From NCBI RefSeq assembly GCF_000243395.2, contig NZ_CM001484.1, positions 4,295,450-4,359,449 of the forward strand: 64,000 nt of DNA, read 5' to 3'. Each line of letters opens with the position of its first letter. Position 1 is the stretch's first letter. Positions 3,706-15,478 of this stretch are shown here, in pieces. Both the position numbers and the translations under genes were made by a program. This DNA is from Saccharomonospora glauca K62. Its GTDB lineage: Bacteria > Actinomycetota > Actinomycetes > Mycobacteriales > Pseudonocardiaceae. The notes beneath the pieces are model-generated. The model had not been told where the DNA came from. It made no database searches and saw only the letters and a program-made list of their open reading frames with translations.

Positions 3706-4425
3706 CTACGGTGTGGTCGACGTGGCTCGCGCGAGCAGCCCGTCGACGAAGGCCCGAAGCCCTTGCAGGTAGGTGTCCCGCGCCGAGAGGGTGACCCATT
3801 CCCCACCGAGAGAGGTCAGGTGCGGAAACCGGGTCGTGCTGAGATCGGCGAAGAAATCGTCGCGGTCGACGGGGCGCACGTCCTCCGGAGGTCGCCCCGC
3901 GGAACGCGCCCGGACCAGGATCTCGCCGACCGTGTAGTACCACAGGCTGCGGAAGACGTACACGGCCTGCGCGGGAGTACAACCGCCGGCGACGGCGCCC
4001 TCCACGATGGCCTCGACCAGCCGGAGGGCCGAGTCGCCGACCCGGACGACGAAGCCGTCCGCGGTGAGGATCTCCGCGGCCCACGGCCAGGCCGCGAGCG
4101 CGTCGTGGATGGCGGCCGTGGCCACGACGATGCGTTCCCGAGGATCGCTCGGCAGGTCGGGTAGCGGTACCCGGTCGGCGTACTCGCGGATCAACAGGAG
4201 CAGCAGGTCCTGTTTGCTCCGCACGTGGTGATACAGGGTCGTCGTTCCGACGCCGAGCTCGGCGGCCAGTTGCCGAACGGTCAGTTTCTCCCAGCCGTCG
4301 CGGTCGATGAGCCGACGGGCCGCCGCGAGGATCTGCGCGCGGGAGGTCACCGGCGGCCTGCCCGCACGACTTCGCGATTCGTTGCGTCGGACCACCGCCC
4401 CATCATGCCCCTCCCGCTCAGCCAC
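3706..4425 (-). CDS. TetR family transcriptional regulator
   Basis: 239 residues from a GTG. The N-terminal TetR helix-turn-helix is clear: ILAAARRLIDRDGWEKLTVRQLAAELGVGTTTLYHHV is read across residues about 29-65 (only part is diagnostic: LGVGTTTLYHHVRSKQDLL). The C-terminal ligand domain resembles TetR_C. It is transcribed divergently from an EmrB/QacA-type MFS pump 104 bp away, the classic local repressor/efflux arrangement. The ligand is probably a drug or toxic metabolite taken by the pump (inference). An internal GTG about 10 codons downstream is an alternative start. Confidence 0.88.
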   Translation of the reverse strand: MAEREGHDGAVVRRNESRSRAGRPPVTSRAQILAAARRLIDRDGWEKLTVRQLAAELGVGTTTLYHHVRSKQDLLLLLIREYADRVPLPDLPSDPRERIVVATAAIHDALAAWPWAAEILTADGFVVRVGDSALRLVEAIVEGAVAGGCTPAQAVYVFRSLWYYTVGEILVRARSAGRPPEDVRPVDRDDFFADLSTTRFPHLTSLGGEWVTLSARDTYLQGLRAFVDGLLARATSTTP

Positions 4426-4473
4426 CCGGCACTCGCCGTTGTGTGTTCGACAGCACTCCGCTTCGGTGCTACA

Positions 4474-4491
4474 TTTCGGAACATGTTCGAA
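4474..4491. promoter_or_regulatory. Probable TetR operator between regulator and pump genes
   Basis: An 18-bp imperfect dyad TTCGGAACATGTTCGAAA, containing the perfect 10-bp palindrome GAACATGTTC (4478-4487), sits in the 104-bp divergent intergenic region, 39 bp before the MFS start. It is the only clear dyad there. Size and position fit a TetR dimer site; binding is inferred. Confidence 0.55.
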
Positions 4492-4529
4492 AATTATGCT
4501 GGGGGACGGCGCGGGGAGGCCGGGCCGCG

Positions 4530-5963
4530 ATGACGAACACGGAATCGGCGCCCGACGGCCCCCGTCTGGCCGGAAACACTCGTTCCGGACTCACCCTTGC
4601 CTCGGTAGCGGTCGTTCAGTTCCTCGTGTCCGTGGACCTCACGATCGTGAACGTCGGACTTCCCCGGATCGCCGAAGGTCTCGGGTTCGACGGCGTGGGC
4701 CTCACCTGGGTCGTCCACGCCTACGCCCTCACCTTCGGAGGGCTGCTCCTCCTGGGCGGGAAGATCGCCGACCGGTACGGCCACAAACGCGTCCTGACAT
4801 TGGGGCTCACCGTGTTCGCCCTCGCCTCGCTCGCCGGCGGTTTCGCCACGGAACCGGGCCACCTGATCGCCGCGCGCGCGGTTCAGGGCGTGGGCGCCGC
4901 CGCACTGGCGCCTGCCGCGCTCGCGCTACTGACCGCGACCTTCCCGTCGGGCGCCCCTCGCGTCAAGGCCTTCGGGATCTGGAGCGCGATGAACGCCGCC
5001 GGAGGCGCCCTCGGGGTTCTGATCGGCGGCCTGCTCACCGAGTACGCCGGTTGGCAGTGGGTCATGTTCGTCAACGTTCCGATGGCGGGCTGCGCATTGG
5101 CACTGACCTGGCGCGGAGTCTCCGTCGACCGGCCCGCCGCCCGCCGTGGCCGCCCGGATGTGCCGGGGGCCGTGCTCGCCACCGCGGGGATGACCCTGCT
5201 CGTGTTCGGCATCGTCCGGACCGAGCGGTATTCGTGGACGTCGACGACCACGTTGGCGACCCTGCTCATCGCCGTCGTCCTGCTGGCCGCGTTCCTTCAC
5301 GTCGAGCGCACCACCTCCCGCGACCCGCTGATCCGGCTCGGGTTGTTCACCAACCGGTCGGTGGCCGGCGCCAACGCCTACAACCTGCTGCTCGGCGCCG
5401 CCATGGCCTCGGCCTTCTACTTCGTGTCCCTCTACCTCCAACGAGTGCTCGGCAGCGGCCCGGCACTGGCCGGTGTCCAGTGCCTGCCGTTCGCGATCGG
5501 GGTGATCGTGGGCTCCGTCCTCGCCGTCAAACTCGGACTCCGGGTGCCCCGCCGAACCCTTCTGGTCATCGGCGGTGTGGTGACCGCGGCGGGATTCGCG
5601 TGGTTCGGGACGCTGAGCGCCGACGGCTCGTTCCTCGCCGACGTCCTGGGCGCGTCGCTCGTCACCAGCGTCGGATTCGGGCTCTGCCTCGGACCGGTCG
5701 TCTCCACGGCCACCGTGGGCGTCGCACCCCACGAAGCCGGTACCGCGTCGGGCCTGCTCAGCAGCACCAGGCAGATCGGCGCGTCACTCGGCCTCGCCGC
5801 CCTCGGCACCACCGCCCACGACCACACCGGAGGAAGCACCACGGCCGAGGCACTCGCCGGAGGCTACGCACTGGGCATGACGATCTGTGCCGTGCTGCTG
5901 CTCGGGGCCGCGTTCGTCGCCCTCACCGTGTTGCCGCGCACGGACCCGAAACCGGCGACGTAG
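4530..5963 (+). CDS. MFS drug efflux transporter (DHA2/EmrB-QacA type)
   Basis: 477 residues. Start chosen at ATG 4530, preceded by a GGGAGG-type site; a longer frame back to 4443 runs through the operator. Motif A is visible (GKIADRYGHKRVL), as is the DHA2 segment DLTIVNVGLPRI in helix 1 and the motif C-like GGALGVLIGGLLTE in helix 5. About 14 membrane helices are expected. The protein should export hydrophobic compounds using the proton gradient. Substrate unknown; divergent pairing with the TetR gene suggests induction by the substrate. Confidence 0.92.
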   Translation: MTNTESAPDGPRLAGNTRSGLTLASVAVVQFLVSVDLTIVNVGLPRIAEGLGFDGVGLTWVVHAYALTFGGLLLLGGKIADRYGHKRVLTLGLTVFALASLAGGFATEPGHLIAARAVQGVGAAALAPAALALLTATFPSGAPRVKAFGIWSAMNAAGGALGVLIGGLLTEYAGWQWVMFVNVPMAGCALALTWRGVSVDRPAARRGRPDVPGAVLATAGMTLLVFGIVRTERYSWTSTTTLATLLIAVVLLAAFLHVERTTSRDPLIRLGLFTNRSVAGANAYNLLLGAAMASAFYFVSLYLQRVLGSGPALAGVQCLPFAIGVIVGSVLAVKLGLRVPRRTLLVIGGVVTAAGFAWFGTLSADGSFLADVLGASLVTSVGFGLCLGPVVSTATVGVAPHEAGTASGLLSSTRQIGASLGLAALGTTAHDHTGGSTTAEALAGGYALGMTICAVLLLGAAFVALTVLPRTDPKPAT

Positions 5964-9293: not shown

Positions 9294-9407
9294 ATGCGAG
9301 GTTCGCCGGGCGCAGCGCTTGAGGACGTCTTCGGTGAGAAGTCCGAGTGGTTCCCCTGGGTAAAGGGTGAGCCGCTGTCGCCGCGGGGCGTCCGGCATCC
9401 GGGCTGA
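9294..9407 (+). CDS. Possible 37-residue protein of unknown function
   Basis: An ATG frame of 37 codons begins 3 nt after an AAGGGAG sequence that overlaps the right arm of the preceding hairpin. The middle of the peptide (ALEDVFGEKSEWFPWVKGEP) has a natural-looking, aromatic-containing composition rather than the Arg/Ala/Pro bias of spurious GC-rich frames. It ends just before tRNA-Lys. It could be a small protein or a remnant of a larger gene. Weak call. Confidence 0.25.
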   Translation: MRGSPGAALEDVFGEKSEWFPWVKGEPLSPRGVRHPG

Positions 9408-9419
9408 TCCGGACTTCGT

Positions 9420-9495
9420 TGGTGGGCCGCCTGGGACTCGAACCCAGAACCTATGGATTAAAAGTCCACAGCTCTGCCAATTGAGCTAACGGCCC
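9420..9495 (-). tRNA. tRNA-Lys (anticodon UUU)
   Basis: On the minus strand a full cloverleaf starts GGGCCGTTAGCTC and has the anticodon loop CTTTTAA (anticodon TTT), a T-loop region GGTTCGAGTCC, and acceptor 3' strand GCGGCCC followed by discriminator A. The CCA end is encoded (9420-9422). The first and last acceptor pairs close correctly, with one G-U pair. Decodes AAA/AAG. Confidence 0.97.
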
Positions 9496-9676
9496 GCCCT
9501 GGAGTGTAGCGTCGAGCGGGTGCGGCGAGCGCAGGAGGCGGTCGTTGGACCGAGCACCGCAGCTCACCGCGTCCTCAAGCGGCGGGCACGAGCGGGTACG
9601 GCGTTCGAAGACACGTGCCCCGGTCCGCACGCCGTTGTGCGGCGCGGGGCACGCGGTGAACTCCCGAAGGAGCTTC

Positions 9677-9742
9677 TCAGCACTTTCCGCAGCAGCCGCA
9701 GTTCGGACCGCTGCAGGAACCGCAGCAACCACACCCACTCAT
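9677..9742 (-). CDS. 21-residue Cys-rich peptide, metallothionein-like
   Basis: A 21-codon frame with ATG at 9742 and TGA at 9677-9679. Eight of 21 residues are Cys, arranged as two exact copies of C-G-C-C-G-x-C (residues 4-10 and 15-21) joined by SGPN. The rest is Gly/Ser plus a single Lys. A GAGAGGG sequence lies 11 nt upstream and a TAGCGT -10-like box at 9786-9791 (minus). Paired CxCC clusters are how metallothioneins and copper-binding peptides hold Cu(I)/Zn, so a thiolate metal or redox role is inferred. The gene is too short for routine annotation and lies about 180 bp upstream of tRNA-Lys on the same strand. Chance is possible, but the perfect duplicated motif argues against it. Confidence 0.55.
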   Translation of the reverse strand: MSGCGCCGSCSGPNCGCCGKC

Positions 9743-10042
9743 GGCAATCACCACCCTCTCGGGACGTGTTCCGTGCCAGCCCCTGACGCTATGAGTCCCC
9801 CACCGCACGCGGCACCACTACCAGGGTGAATCGACCGGTAGCTCTCCGTGAAGCTCCTCGCCCGTTCCGGCCCGTCGCGCCGGGGCCCGGCGACTCCGGC
9901 GCGAAGTCGCTCCCTCGACCCGCCCACCGCTGGTCACGGCACGTACCGGGGCATGTTCGAAACGAACGTCGCGGTCCGAAATCGCACGCGGTCCGCGGGC
10001 TGGTCGGGCTGAGTTCCCGCCGGACGTGTCACACTGCGCAAC

Positions 10043-11128
10043 GTGGAGTACCAACTCACGGCCGAACTCGCCTCCCCACCCGAGGCGCCGGACCTGGACC
10101 CGTTGCAGCAGGTCGGCGTCGTCTCGCTGCTCGACGAGCGGTTGAACAACCTCGCGAGCATCGAGGGCCCGGACGGCATGGAGATCGTTCCGGTTGAGCA
10201 CTCCATCGAAGCGCATCTCGGTGGTGCCGTGGTGAACTGGCTGCTCGACGCGCCCGCCCTGGTGTTCGCCGAGGACGCCACCCGCTCCGTGCTGGAGCAG
10301 CTGATCGACGAGATCGACCTGCTCGCGGGCTGGGAGGTCAAGCACTGCGCGGTGACCGCGACCGACGACCAACTCGCCAGCGCGCTGGCGGTGTCGCTCG
10401 ACCCGGACGAGTTCCCCGACGGACTGCCCTCGGACCTCGACGACACCGGTCTCGCGCGCACCTTCGTGCTCGACTCGGGGGAGACCGACGAGATCGCCTC
10501 CGCCATGTCCGAGGCCGAGCTGGTCGACCGCAGAGCGAGCCTGCTGCGCGCGAGCACCTACTTGAAGGCCTTCGGCCTCGACGTCTTCGGCGTGGCCGAC
10601 GAGGAGCGCGCGAGGTACGTGGCCGGGGCGCTGATGCACGGTGTCGAGATGCTCATCGACGAGTTGTTCGGCGACGTGCAGATGCTGGAGGACGAGGACG
10701 CCACCGCCGACGAGGTGGAGGCCCTGTGGGCGGTGGACGAGTTACCTCAACAGTACGTGGACCGGTACAGCGCGCTGTTCGCCAAGCAGTTCCTCGTCAC
10801 CACCTCGATTCTCGGGCACCGGCTCACCAGGGAAGGCTGGGGCGGGCCGTTGTCCGTGGCCGAGGCGCTCGCGTTGCGTATCGCGGAGTCGCGCGCCGAG
10901 GTGGAACTCGATCTCGCCGAGATCCTGGACCCCGACGAGATCGACGGCGTCTACACCGCCTTCAACGAACGCGCCCTGGCCGGGCTCGACCTCGACCTGC
11001 TGTACACGGTCCCCGAGTCCGAGCTCACCGCCGACCTGGCCTTCCCCAGTTGGTTCAGGCCACGCGCCGAGTCCGGCGACACCACGCCGCACCCGTACCT
11101 GGCCGACGAGGACGACGGCGAGGACTGA
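10043..11128 (+). CDS. Conserved acidic protein of unknown function
   Basis: 361 residues from a GTG; very acidic (many Asp/Glu, for example MLEDEDATADEVEALWAVDEL), with no signal peptide or membrane helix, so cytoplasmic. Mostly helical with no catalytic motif that I recognise. A CACACT box ends 7 nt before the GTG and there is no ribosome binding site, suggesting a leaderless start. The length, codon use and non-random composition support a real gene. No function proposed. Confidence 0.75.
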   Translation: MEYQLTAELASPPEAPDLDPLQQVGVVSLLDERLNNLASIEGPDGMEIVPVEHSIEAHLGGAVVNWLLDAPALVFAEDATRSVLEQLIDEIDLLAGWEVKHCAVTATDDQLASALAVSLDPDEFPDGLPSDLDDTGLARTFVLDSGETDEIASAMSEAELVDRRASLLRASTYLKAFGLDVFGVADEERARYVAGALMHGVEMLIDELFGDVQMLEDEDATADEVEALWAVDELPQQYVDRYSALFAKQFLVTTSILGHRLTREGWGGPLSVAEALALRIAESRAEVELDLAEILDPDEIDGVYTAFNERALAGLDLDLLYTVPESELTADLAFPSWFRPRAESGDTTPHPYLADEDDGED

Positions 11129-12949: not shown

Positions 12950-13516
12950 ATGCGCAACCGAATCGCCGCCCTGTTGGTGACGCTCACGGCCGCCACGGCC
13001 GTCACCACCGTGGCCCTGCCCGCGTCCGCCGCGGAGTACGGCATCACCGCCGTGGTCACCACGTTCCAAAGCGACCACCGCTTCGGCGACGCCGTCACCT
13101 ACGACCCCGATCTCGTTCCGGTGGGCTCCCTGGTCGGCGTCGCCACGGTGACCGAGGAAGAAGGCATGGTCACCGAACTGAAGGTGCGTGGCCTCGTGCC
13201 CGATCGCGAGTACGGCGCGCACGTCCACGTCAACCCCTGCGGTGCGACCGGGGACGACGCCGGACCCCACTACCAGCACGTCCGGGACCCGAAACAGCCG
13301 TCCACCGACCCCGCCTACGCCAACCCCGAGAACGAGATCTGGCTCGACTTCACCACCGACGCGCAGGGTGCGGGAGAGGCTCGTTCCGAGGTCGCCTGGT
13401 CCTTCGGTGATCGGCGTCCCGCCTCCGTGGTGATCCACGAGCACCGTACCTCCACCGCCGAGGGGAAGGCCGGAACCGCGGGCGCACGCCTGGCCTGCGT
13501 CGACGTGTCGTTCTGA
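12950..13516 (+). CDS. Secreted Cu/Zn superoxide dismutase-like protein
   Basis: 188 residues with a Sec signal peptide (LLVTLTAATAVTTVALPASA, cleavage near residue 27). The HVHVNPCG motif matches the Cu-ligand HxH and disulfide Cys of SodC, GPHYQH gives further possible ligands, and ACVDV near the C terminus supplies the second Cys. Several residues of classical SodC are altered, for example the RAC-type C-terminal signature, so dismutase activity is likely only by family resemblance. It probably acts outside the cell against superoxide or as a copper-binding protein. Confidence 0.8.
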   Translation: MRNRIAALLVTLTAATAVTTVALPASAAEYGITAVVTTFQSDHRFGDAVTYDPDLVPVGSLVGVATVTEEEGMVTELKVRGLVPDREYGAHVHVNPCGATGDDAGPHYQHVRDPKQPSTDPAYANPENEIWLDFTTDAQGAGEARSEVAWSFGDRRPASVVIHEHRTSTAEGKAGTAGARLACVDVSF

Positions 13517-13578: not shown

Positions 13579-13965
13579 TCAGGCCCGTTGCGCGGCGTCG
13601 TAGCGCGCTCGGGCCGCCGCGATGTCCGCGCGGTGTCGCTGTGCCCAGTCGGTGAGGGAGCGCAGCGTGCCGTACAACTCGCGCGCCATGTCCGTGAGTT
13701 CGTACTCCACCTTCGGCGGCACCGTCGGGTAGACGGTGCGCCGCAGCAACCCGTCGCGTTCGAGCCTACGCACCGTGAGCGTCAGCATGCGCCTGCTGAT
13801 CCCCTCGACCGCGCGCTCCAGCTCGGTGAACCGCACCGGTCCGTGCGCGGCGGCGACGAGCACCCCGATGCTCCACTTTCCCGCGACGTGGTCGAGAACT
13901 TCGGCGAGCGGGCAGGCCTCCTCCTCGATGACCTGGGCGGTCACATTCGTGTGACTCCGGGACAT
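13579..13965 (-). CDS. HxlR-family transcriptional regulator
   Basis: 128 residues, single winged-helix domain. CPLAEVLDHVAGKWSIGVLV carries the family-typical N-terminal Cys followed by the GKW segment; the recognition region reads GISRRMLTLTVRRLERDGLL and the wing is YPTVPPKVEYELT. The ATG has a good GGAAGGAGG site. It is divergent from an MFS pump 76 bp away, so it probably represses that pump in response to a drug or electrophile (inference). Confidence 0.92.
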   Translation of the reverse strand: MSRSHTNVTAQVIEEEACPLAEVLDHVAGKWSIGVLVAAAHGPVRFTELERAVEGISRRMLTLTVRRLERDGLLRRTVYPTVPPKVEYELTDMARELYGTLRSLTDWAQRHRADIAAARARYDAAQRA

Positions 13966-14041
13966 GAAAGTGCCTCCTTCCGACCGCCGCGATGGTCACA
14001 CATGATGACTCCTGTTACAAGTCGTGCACCATGGAGTCGAA

Positions 14042-15478
14042 ATGGAACCATCGACCATCGCGCTCCCATCCCGGACTCGCTGGCTGGCGCTGGTCGTCCT
14101 GTGTGCGGGCGCGCTGATGGCCATCGTCGACGAGACGATCGTCGCCGTGTCGCTTCCGGTGATCCAGTCGGACCTGGGGTTCACTCAGGCGGGCGCGAGC
14201 TGGATCACCGGCGCCTACCTCGTCGCCTTCGCGGGTCTGCTGCTACTCGCGGGGCGACTCGGTGACCTCGTCGGACGGCGCCGGGTGTTCCTCGTCGGCC
14301 TCGCCGGTTTCACCGTGTCGTCGGCCCTGTGCGGGCTGGCCCCGAACCCGGTCGTGCTCGTGGCGGCCCGGTTCGTCCAGGGAATCGGTGGCGCCGCGAT
14401 GACGGCTGTGCTCCTCGGGATGATCGTCACCCTGTTCACCGAACCCGGCGAGCGAGCCAGGGCCATCGGAGCGTTCAGCTTCGTGCAGGCGTCGGGCGGC
14501 ACCCTCGGCGCCCTGATCGGTGGTCTCGTCACCGAGGCACTGAGTTGGCACTGGATCTTCTACCTCAACGTGCCCCTCGGGGTACTGGCGTTCCTCCTCG
14601 CTCTGCGGGTCCTGCCGGGGGACGAGGCCCCGCACACCCGGCAACGGTTGGACGTTCCGGGGGCGGTACTGGCCACCGGAGGACTCGCCACGCTCATCTA
14701 CGCGATCACGGGGCTGGAACGGACCGGTTGGGAGGAGGCGTGCGCCTTCGGCGTCGTGGCCGCCGCCCTGCTCGGCGGTCTCGTACTCCGTCAGAGGAAG
14801 ACCGACGCACCGCTGCTGCCGCTGCGGCTGCTGCGGTCACGGCGGCTCGTGGGCGCCAACGTCGTCCTGCTCCTGCTCGTGGCGGCCATGTTCGGCTTCA
14901 TGTTCCTCACGATGCTCACCGTGCAGCGGGTGTTCTCCTTTGACACTCGCCAGGCCGGGCTCGCGATGGCTCCGGTGTCCGTGGCCATCGCCGTGCTGTC
15001 GCTGATCGTGACCCCGAGACTCAACACCCGCTTCGGGGAACGTCTCGTGCTGCCGGTGGGACTCACCGTCATCGCGGTCGGCTTCGCGCTCCTGGCCACA
15101 CTGCCGCCCGACGCGAGTTACGTCCCGCACCTGTTGCCCGCGCTGATGCTGCTGGGCACGGGCTTCGGCCTCGCCATGCCGTCGCTGATGTCGCTCGGCA
15201 TGGCCGAGGCGACGCCGCGGGACTCCGGCGTGGCGTCCGGGCTGTTCAACACGACGCAACAGGTCGGTGGGGCGTTGGGGTTGTCGACCCTGCTCGTAGT
15301 GGCGACGGCACACGCCGACGCACGGCTGGCCGAGGGCACGCCGGAGCCCCTCGCGCTGCTCGACGGCTACCGCCTCTCCTTCGGCATCGGGGTGGGGCTC
15401 GTGCTCACGGCTTGCGCGATGACTCTGGTTCTCCTCTCTCGTCGGGGACCCGGAACGGAACGACCGGCACGCTCCTGA
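14042..15478 (+). CDS. MFS efflux transporter (DHA2 type)
   Basis: 478 residues from ATG 14042, chosen for GGAG at 5-nt spacing (a GTG at 14024 is less good). Motif A is GRLGDLVGRRRVFL, helix 1 has MAIVDETIVAVSLPVIQ, and motif C-like GGTLGALIGGLVTEAL is in helix 5. Fourteen helices are expected. The substrate is unknown. It is divergent from the HxlR gene. Confidence 0.92.
   Translation: MEPSTIALPSRTRWLALVVLCAGALMAIVDETIVAVSLPVIQSDLGFTQAGASWITGAYLVAFAGLLLLAGRLGDLVGRRRVFLVGLAGFTVSSALCGLAPNPVVLVAARFVQGIGGAAMTAVLLGMIVTLFTEPGERARAIGAFSFVQASGGTLGALIGGLVTEALSWHWIFYLNVPLGVLAFLLALRVLPGDEAPHTRQRLDVPGAVLATGGLATLIYAITGLERTGWEEACAFGVVAAALLGGLVLRQRKTDAPLLPLRLLRSRRLVGANVVLLLLVAAMFGFMFLTMLTVQRVFSFDTRQAGLAMAPVSVAIAVLSLIVTPRLNTRFGERLVLPVGLTVIAVGFALLATLPPDASYVPHLLPALMLLGTGFGLAMPSLMSLGMAEATPRDSGVASGLFNTTQQVGGALGLSTLLVVATAHADARLAEGTPEPLALLDGYRLSFGIGVGLVLTACAMTLVLLSRRGPGTERPARS

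Follow-up and report, generated by a model that had tools for sequence, protein, structure and literature searches.

The question raised by this locus is whether a very short, cysteine-dense open reading frame in Saccharomonospora glauca K62 is a gene and, if so, what its product is likely to do. Direct translation of the minus strand from 9742 to 9677 of the window (the whole 64,000-nucleotide stretch of DNA that was analysed) gave a 21-residue peptide, MSGCGCCGSCSGPNCGCCGKC, which runs from an ATG start to a TGA stop codon and carries eight Cys residues in the layout CGCCGSC-SGPN-CGCCGKC, exactly as the first-pass annotation had translated it, SGPN turn included. The same annotation had considered Cys clusters of this density rare by chance; among 338 nested ATG-started ORFs of 15–60 aa in the window, it was the sole ORF with at least four Cys and at least 20% Cys. 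The features of the locus are as follows.

9677..9742, minus strand: microprotein ORF encoding MSGCGCCGSCSGPNCGCCGKC followed by the stop codon, with two CxCCxxC clusters and a four-residue turn between them (sequence, homologues, purifying selection)
9743..9755, minus strand: G-rich, putative ribosome-binding region (GGGTGGTGATTGCC before the ATG; sequence read directly)
9786..9791, minus strand: putative -10-like element TAGCGT (TANNNT), 21 nt after the conserved box
9813..9829, minus strand: conserved box TCACCCTGGTAGTGGTG (consensus TCVCYCNNNNRGYGGTR) at about -51 to -35, probably an activator or regulator site
9659..9674, minus strand: small hairpin immediately 3' of the stop codon (folding and alignment)
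9612..9655, minus strand: strong GC-rich hairpin without a T run, probable transcription terminator (folding and alignment)
9420..9495, minus strand: tRNA-Lys(ttt), downstream neighbour, outside the gene

Conservation of the reading frame far exceeds chance. A tblastn-type search found the peptide in all 12 congeneric genomes with E-values of 6.2e-4 or better; at E ≤ 10, 25 of 41 genomes were matched in all, the weak matches outside the family falling between E 0.56 and 3.1. Across the 12 Saccharomonospora orthologues, the first, second and third codon positions are variable at 3, 3 and 11 of 18 codons, respectively, and the mean dN is 0.052 vs a mean dS of 0.69, values that derive from 54 nt and from non-independent pairs (61 usable of 65 non-identical pairs). 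Cys codons alternate between TGC and TGT in these orthologues, and the DNA flanking the ORF has diverged, except for conserved blocks upstream and downstream. Frameshifts or Cys codon loss in relatives had been named in the first-pass annotation as evidence that would count against the gene; the Cys residues were instead found to be kept while their codons vary synonymously.

The upstream conserved block contains a 17-nt box, TCVCYCNNNNRGYGGTR, common to the upstream regions of the gene in different genera. It scored at least 12 of 13 in 29 of 33 representatives, compared with an expectation of 0.22 in dinucleotide shuffles and 0/33 in downstream controls; the consensus was derived from the very representatives on which it was scored, which had been hand-picked (34, one dropped as too short, with some genera included twice). 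A TANNNT element begins 21–22 nt past the end of the box in 28 of the 33. It is missing at that spacing in Actinopolyspora, Saccharopolyspora, Actinoalloteichus, Halopolyspora and copy 1 of Lentzea, the last of which lacks the box too. In the window, the box has one match vs 0.05 expected, and the possible -10 box of the first-pass annotation is supported by TAGCGT lying 21 nt after it, an arrangement shared by most of the representatives from other genera. Judging from general promoter knowledge, the box would occupy a class II activator position, and its fixed spacing to the -10 element is suggestive of activator binding at about -43. The purine-rich upstream site that had also been proposed was retained in part: GGGTGGTGAT, immediately 5' of the ATG, is indeed G-rich and is weak as a Shine-Dalgarno sequence, while GGAGG-like sites occupy the equivalent position in many other genera.

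A wider role for the box was also considered. With up to two mismatches it gave 33 matches in the S. glauca genome vs 47 in the reversed control, so that no regulon was found, and a stricter, genus-type motif occurred once in the same genome and once in each of two reversed controls. One of two one-mismatch sites (L162) appears to sit in coding sequence. The box matched none of the regulator sites known to us, which, together with the absence of a regulon in this search, leaves metal induction unsupported. A generic sigma-70 and terminator consensus scan of 9300–10300 returned nothing.

Downstream of the stop codon, the region 9610–9679 folds with -43.7 kcal/mol (z -5.1). In an alignment of 8 of the 12 Saccharomonospora loci, the consensus structure has 21 pairs, three of them with changes on both sides; most pairs are invariant, and with a total covariation term of +0.64, which is slightly unfavourable, the large stem counts as conserved and not as covarying. 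Two of four aligned pairs in the small hairpin have changes on both sides, and the fold of one truncated fragment (L001) was not significant (z -0.95). With conservation and with promoter-like and terminator-like signals of its own, the microprotein gene proposed in the first-pass annotation is upheld, and we are all but certain that the MSGCGCCGSCSGPNCGCCGKC ORF is a real gene.

In order to define the distribution of the gene, a profile (A1) of 15 rows was searched against genomes of increasing distance. At E ≤ 0.1 it matched 198 of 297 genomes of the family and 43 of 46 genera; the other 99 genomes gave no match at this threshold, and the gene is therefore either dispensable or too diverged there. 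Some genomes of the family have two or three copies, with two copies in most genomes of one genus (g8). At E ≤ 0.01, 14 of 200 genomes in the order sample were matched, all from the same family, and the single match among 296 genomes of the phylum sample was the genome of the window itself; neither sample gave a match outside the family. A wider profile (A2) matched nine further genomes among 296 from the class at E 0.005–0.04; these were rejected as homologues because the stretches seen lack the eight-Cys pattern and match in part and by chance. In named genomes, a pattern scan found at least 118 stretches; of those listed, 117 are standalone ORFs and one is a fusion to a peroxiredoxin. The pattern required eight Cys, GP and one Gly, so invariance at these positions is by construction. 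Almost all of the named loci among the matches listed are titled Pseudonocardiaceae. The titles outside this family include Nocardia and Rhodococcus (L064, L137) and Melainabacteria (L099), and the last was placed in the family of the window by the genome search. A tblastn search of plasmid and phage sequences with the peptide gave no match.

The features that are kept across the family were examined in 23 weak or off-pattern loci, of which 20 were chosen as low-ranking or late-listed and three as failing the pattern. Eight Cys are kept in all 23 (one has nine) and the canonical Cys spacing in 22, while the turn Pro has been lost in eight, with R, H, A or S in its place. Retention of the eight Cys alongside loss of the Pro indicates that the Cys frame is what is kept. 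All 23 loci were found by profile or tblastn, searches that favour kept Cys; even with this bias, it is informative that the Cys stay while the Pro is lost. The claim of two identical clusters accordingly needs to be divided: it holds in the window (CGCCGSC and CGCCGKC) and as a feature of the genus, and does not hold family-wide, where the constant is the CxCC-xx-C spacing and not the letters. Non-Cys core positions are filled solely by G, S, N, A, T, K and P in the 61 unique pattern-selected cores among the matches listed; in the weak or off-pattern loci, four of 23 carry His or Arg in the turn, and aromatics are absent from those cores. Two characteristics of metallothioneins were thus found, namely a very high Cys content in CxC, CC and CxxC arrangements (8 of 21 residues, with CxCCxxC occurring twice) and few or no aromatic or His residues between the Cys. 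Among the matches listed, all ORFs but the peroxiredoxin fusion (117 of 118) stop no more than one residue past the last Cys. The N termini are variable, 34 of 86 unique peptides among the matches listed being 20–23 aa and 52 being 25–36 aa long when starts are picked by Shine-Dalgarno score. One member of the family (L216) has a ninth Cys at its C terminus (MGGCNCCSACTGHGCGCCASCC).

We think it fairly probable that the gene is monocistronic and that its product is an ultra-short, cytosolic peptide resembling metallothioneins, with a metal-thiolate function likely. The two CxCC-xx-C arms and the Gly-containing turn, usually x-G-P-x, would supply eight thiolates that could wrap a small metal-thiolate cluster. 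The metal would more likely be Cu(I) than Zn(II), a guess that draws on the small uncharged residues between the Cys and on CxC pairs like those of fungal Cu-thioneins. The peptide may then buffer or detoxify a thiophilic metal and possibly scavenge oxidants. Transcription would start at the dedicated promoter with an activator bound at about -43 and would end at the GC-rich hairpin. We infer the transcription start, translation, metal binding, the identity of the metal and the activator. That so small a size can suffice is shown by the fungal Cu-thioneins of 26 aa and seven Cys described in the available excerpt of PMC4755600.

The surroundings of the gene differ between genera. The first-pass annotation had suggested synteny with tRNA-Lys, and the tRNA, which was the sole Rfam match at the locus, adjoins the gene in 10 of the 12 Saccharomonospora loci; the synteny does not extend to other genera (0 of 8 scanned loci). 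As named by eye, the commonest neighbour is a convergent α/β-hydrolase-like gene (61 of 118 loci among the matches listed), and other neighbours are genus-dependent, such as a thioesterase with a MetE-like gene beside Lentzea copy 2 and tRNA-Lys in Saccharomonospora. Inspection by eye of the 14 commonest neighbour clusters revealed no metal gene, metal sensor or efflux pump as a conserved neighbour. In the window, a 361-aa acidic protein without a Pfam match is encoded divergently from the peptide gene at 10043–11128 on the plus strand, and among the matches listed only L094 and L125 have a homologue of it close to the peptide. A secreted Cu/Zn superoxide dismutase-like protein (Pfam Sod_Cu, 2.6e-8) is encoded 3.2 kb from the peptide at 12950–13516 on the plus strand, with a homologue also near the peptide in S. 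saliphila (L117), which is one of the 118 named loci among the matches listed. Divergent TetR/MFS and HxlR/MFS regulator-transporter pairs lie at 3706–5963 and 13579–15478.

Near-identical Cys modules were also recognised in larger proteins. In IMG/VR, tblastn confirmed four of the 43 candidates that a pattern had proposed, and 10 loci came from a DNA pattern; a viral scan without the GP turn returned at least 120 stretches, nearly all of which, among the matches listed, are low-complexity TGC repeats. The eight-Cys (or seven-Cys) modules lie at L181:5001-5057, L182:1786-1854, L183:3881-3937 and L184:1581-1625 and in L188–L197, and the phages that carry them include some of 34–41% GC. The L182 module is inside a Mu-like protein I/head maturation protease (Pfam 3.4e-13) and the L181 module inside a 2'-5' RNA ligase-like protein (1.3e-12). 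L190 resembles the head maturation protease phrog_80 (6.2e-6), as does L183 more weakly (0.0038), while L184 and its look-alikes are low-GC phage proteins without a family match. A seven-Cys version (CSCSNCTGPGCGCCGNCK) also occurs as a standalone 42-aa ORF with a GGAGG site at L193:4379-4423 on the minus strand of a 129-kb IMG/VR contig. Finally, at L055:180-233 (minus strand; also L186), the module forms the N terminus of a Thermoplasmata peroxiredoxin (NCBIfam 6.5e-27, PDB 5ovq 3.1e-22), a fusion that is absent from the other 59 of 60 related genomes searched. The modules in the phage proteins and in the peroxiredoxin share CxCCxxC[ST]GPxCGCCxxC or a close variant with the window peptide; they are embedded in larger proteins of unrelated hosts, whereas the window peptide is standalone. 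On a comparison of 20 residues, these modules may be homologous to the peptide or may have arisen by convergence.

Such modules bear most directly on the alternative that the peptide is a docking knuckle structured by Zn(II) or another metal, which would fold around one or two ions and function as partner or subunit of another protein instead of buffering metal. The fixed spacing CxCCxxC-x4-CxCCxxC argues for it, as does the recurrence of the module in the L181, L182, L183 (weakly phrog_80), L184 and L190 phage proteins and in the L055 peroxiredoxin. However, loss of the turn Pro in the weaker loci and the freely varying residues between the Cys suit a metallothionein better, and the N-terminal extensions differ among genera; we therefore regard a docking knuckle as rather unlikely. 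The modules of the phage proteins and the peroxiredoxin are explained as well by a structural Zn knuckle or by a redox tail as by a metallothionein. Another alternative is a thiol redox or oxidant-sink microprotein that would not primarily bind metal and whose eight thiols would alternate between the reduced and the disulfide form, perhaps together with mycothiol. The Cys-dense sequence, the Sod_Cu-like gene 3.2 kb away with its homologue in S. saliphila and the one peroxiredoxin fusion are consistent with such a role. It is nevertheless improbable, considering that the dismutase neighbour recurs in a single named locus among those listed, that the fusion is unique among the 60 related genomes and that CxCC clusters are typical of metal-thiolate peptides.

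The remaining explanations treat the ORF as a regulatory or precursor sequence. Poly-Cys leaders are known in mycobacteria, and a cysteine-responsive leader peptide (attenuator uORF) for a downstream gene would be compatible with the 20 of 98 testable loci, among the matches listed, in which the next downstream ORF is on the same strand within 400 nt, for example the MetE-like gene beside the second Lentzea copy. Among those 98 loci, however, 72 have a convergent ORF next downstream and six a same-strand ORF further away, which points to an autonomous gene and not to a leader peptide. Moreover, the gene in the window is followed by a terminator-like hairpin and then by the tRNA, and a leader has no need for conservation of Cys spacing at the amino acid level, so that a leader function appears very improbable. 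An equally remote reading is that of a RiPP precursor, in which the GG before the Cys-rich core would resemble a leader/core junction. The N-terminal extensions of many Saccharopolyspora and other members do end in GG; yet just two residues separate Met from the first Cys in many genera, including that of the window, the recurring neighbours are genus-dependent, and by eye none of the 14 commonest neighbour clusters is RiPP-enzyme-like.

The metallothionein-like reading can be extended to the embedded modules in a proposal that we consider doubtful and put forward tentatively. In it, a portable and hitherto unnamed metal knuckle with eight Cys (CxCCxxC-[ST]GPx-CGCC-xx-C) would fold by itself around metal in about 20 residues, and the peptide would be its free-living form. 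The peptide would serve the whole family as a housekeeping metallothionein under a dedicated promoter controlled by an activator, and the knuckle would have been joined to head-associated proteins of phages, to an RNA-ligase-like protein of a phage and to a peroxiredoxin of an archaeon. Recurrence of a near-identical module in phage proteins would call for an explanation of its presence in virion-associated proteins. The peptide also makes a clean test case of two thiolate arms within a minimal 20 residues, for which nature supplies variants, and the conserved promoter with its 17-bp box provides a handle on its regulator.

Comparison with known families placed the peptide outside existing models. 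None of 41 members matched a Pfam family, the metallothionein models including SmtA/BmtA being unmatched, and a search of NCBIfam with one member gave a single irrelevant match at E 7.5, with metallothionein models again unmatched. Three peptides had no match in PHROGs, and a PDB profile search with A1 had none. Within the partial coverage of the literature, no description of the peptide was recognised; a search with the motif mostly met unrelated abbreviations and DNA strings, and the available excerpt of PMC7767326 on Amycolatopsis tucumanensis contains nothing about such a peptide.

Like SmtA and BmtA, the members are small bacterial Cys-rich proteins. However, SmtA and BmtA contain a zinc-finger fold, according to the excerpted text of PMC7558416, whereas the present family lacks a Pfam or NCBIfam match to such models. 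The mycobacterial Cu-metallothionein MymT, in the parts of PMC7558416 and PMC7387436 that describe it, is a 4.9-kDa product of a previously unannotated ORF that is needed for Cu resistance in its own species. The window peptide can be likened to MymT, by that description alone, as an actinobacterial small Cys-rich protein; it is smaller, at about 2 kDa vs 4.9 kDa. The same portion of PMC7387436 states that only two bacterial metallothioneins had been functionally investigated, and the present peptides, if metal-binding, could extend bacterial metallothioneins to a large antibiotic-producing family.

The fungal Cu-thioneins of Neurospora crassa and Agaricus bisporus, as they appear in the excerpt of PMC4755600, may be considered a close formal analogue, without a claim of sequence homology. 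They are likewise very short, Cys-dense and standalone, with small spacers and CxC ending in xx-C. Their seven Cys follow the pattern [CXC]-X5-[CXC]-X3-[CXC]-X2-C, in contrast to CxCC-xx-C-x4-CxCC-xx-C in the bacterial peptide, and they comprise 26 aa, compared with eight Cys in 20–23 aa in the shortest bacterial members. According to the same excerpt, these 26-residue fungal proteins were once considered the shortest metallothioneins; if it binds metal, the peptide from S. glauca would be shorter still.
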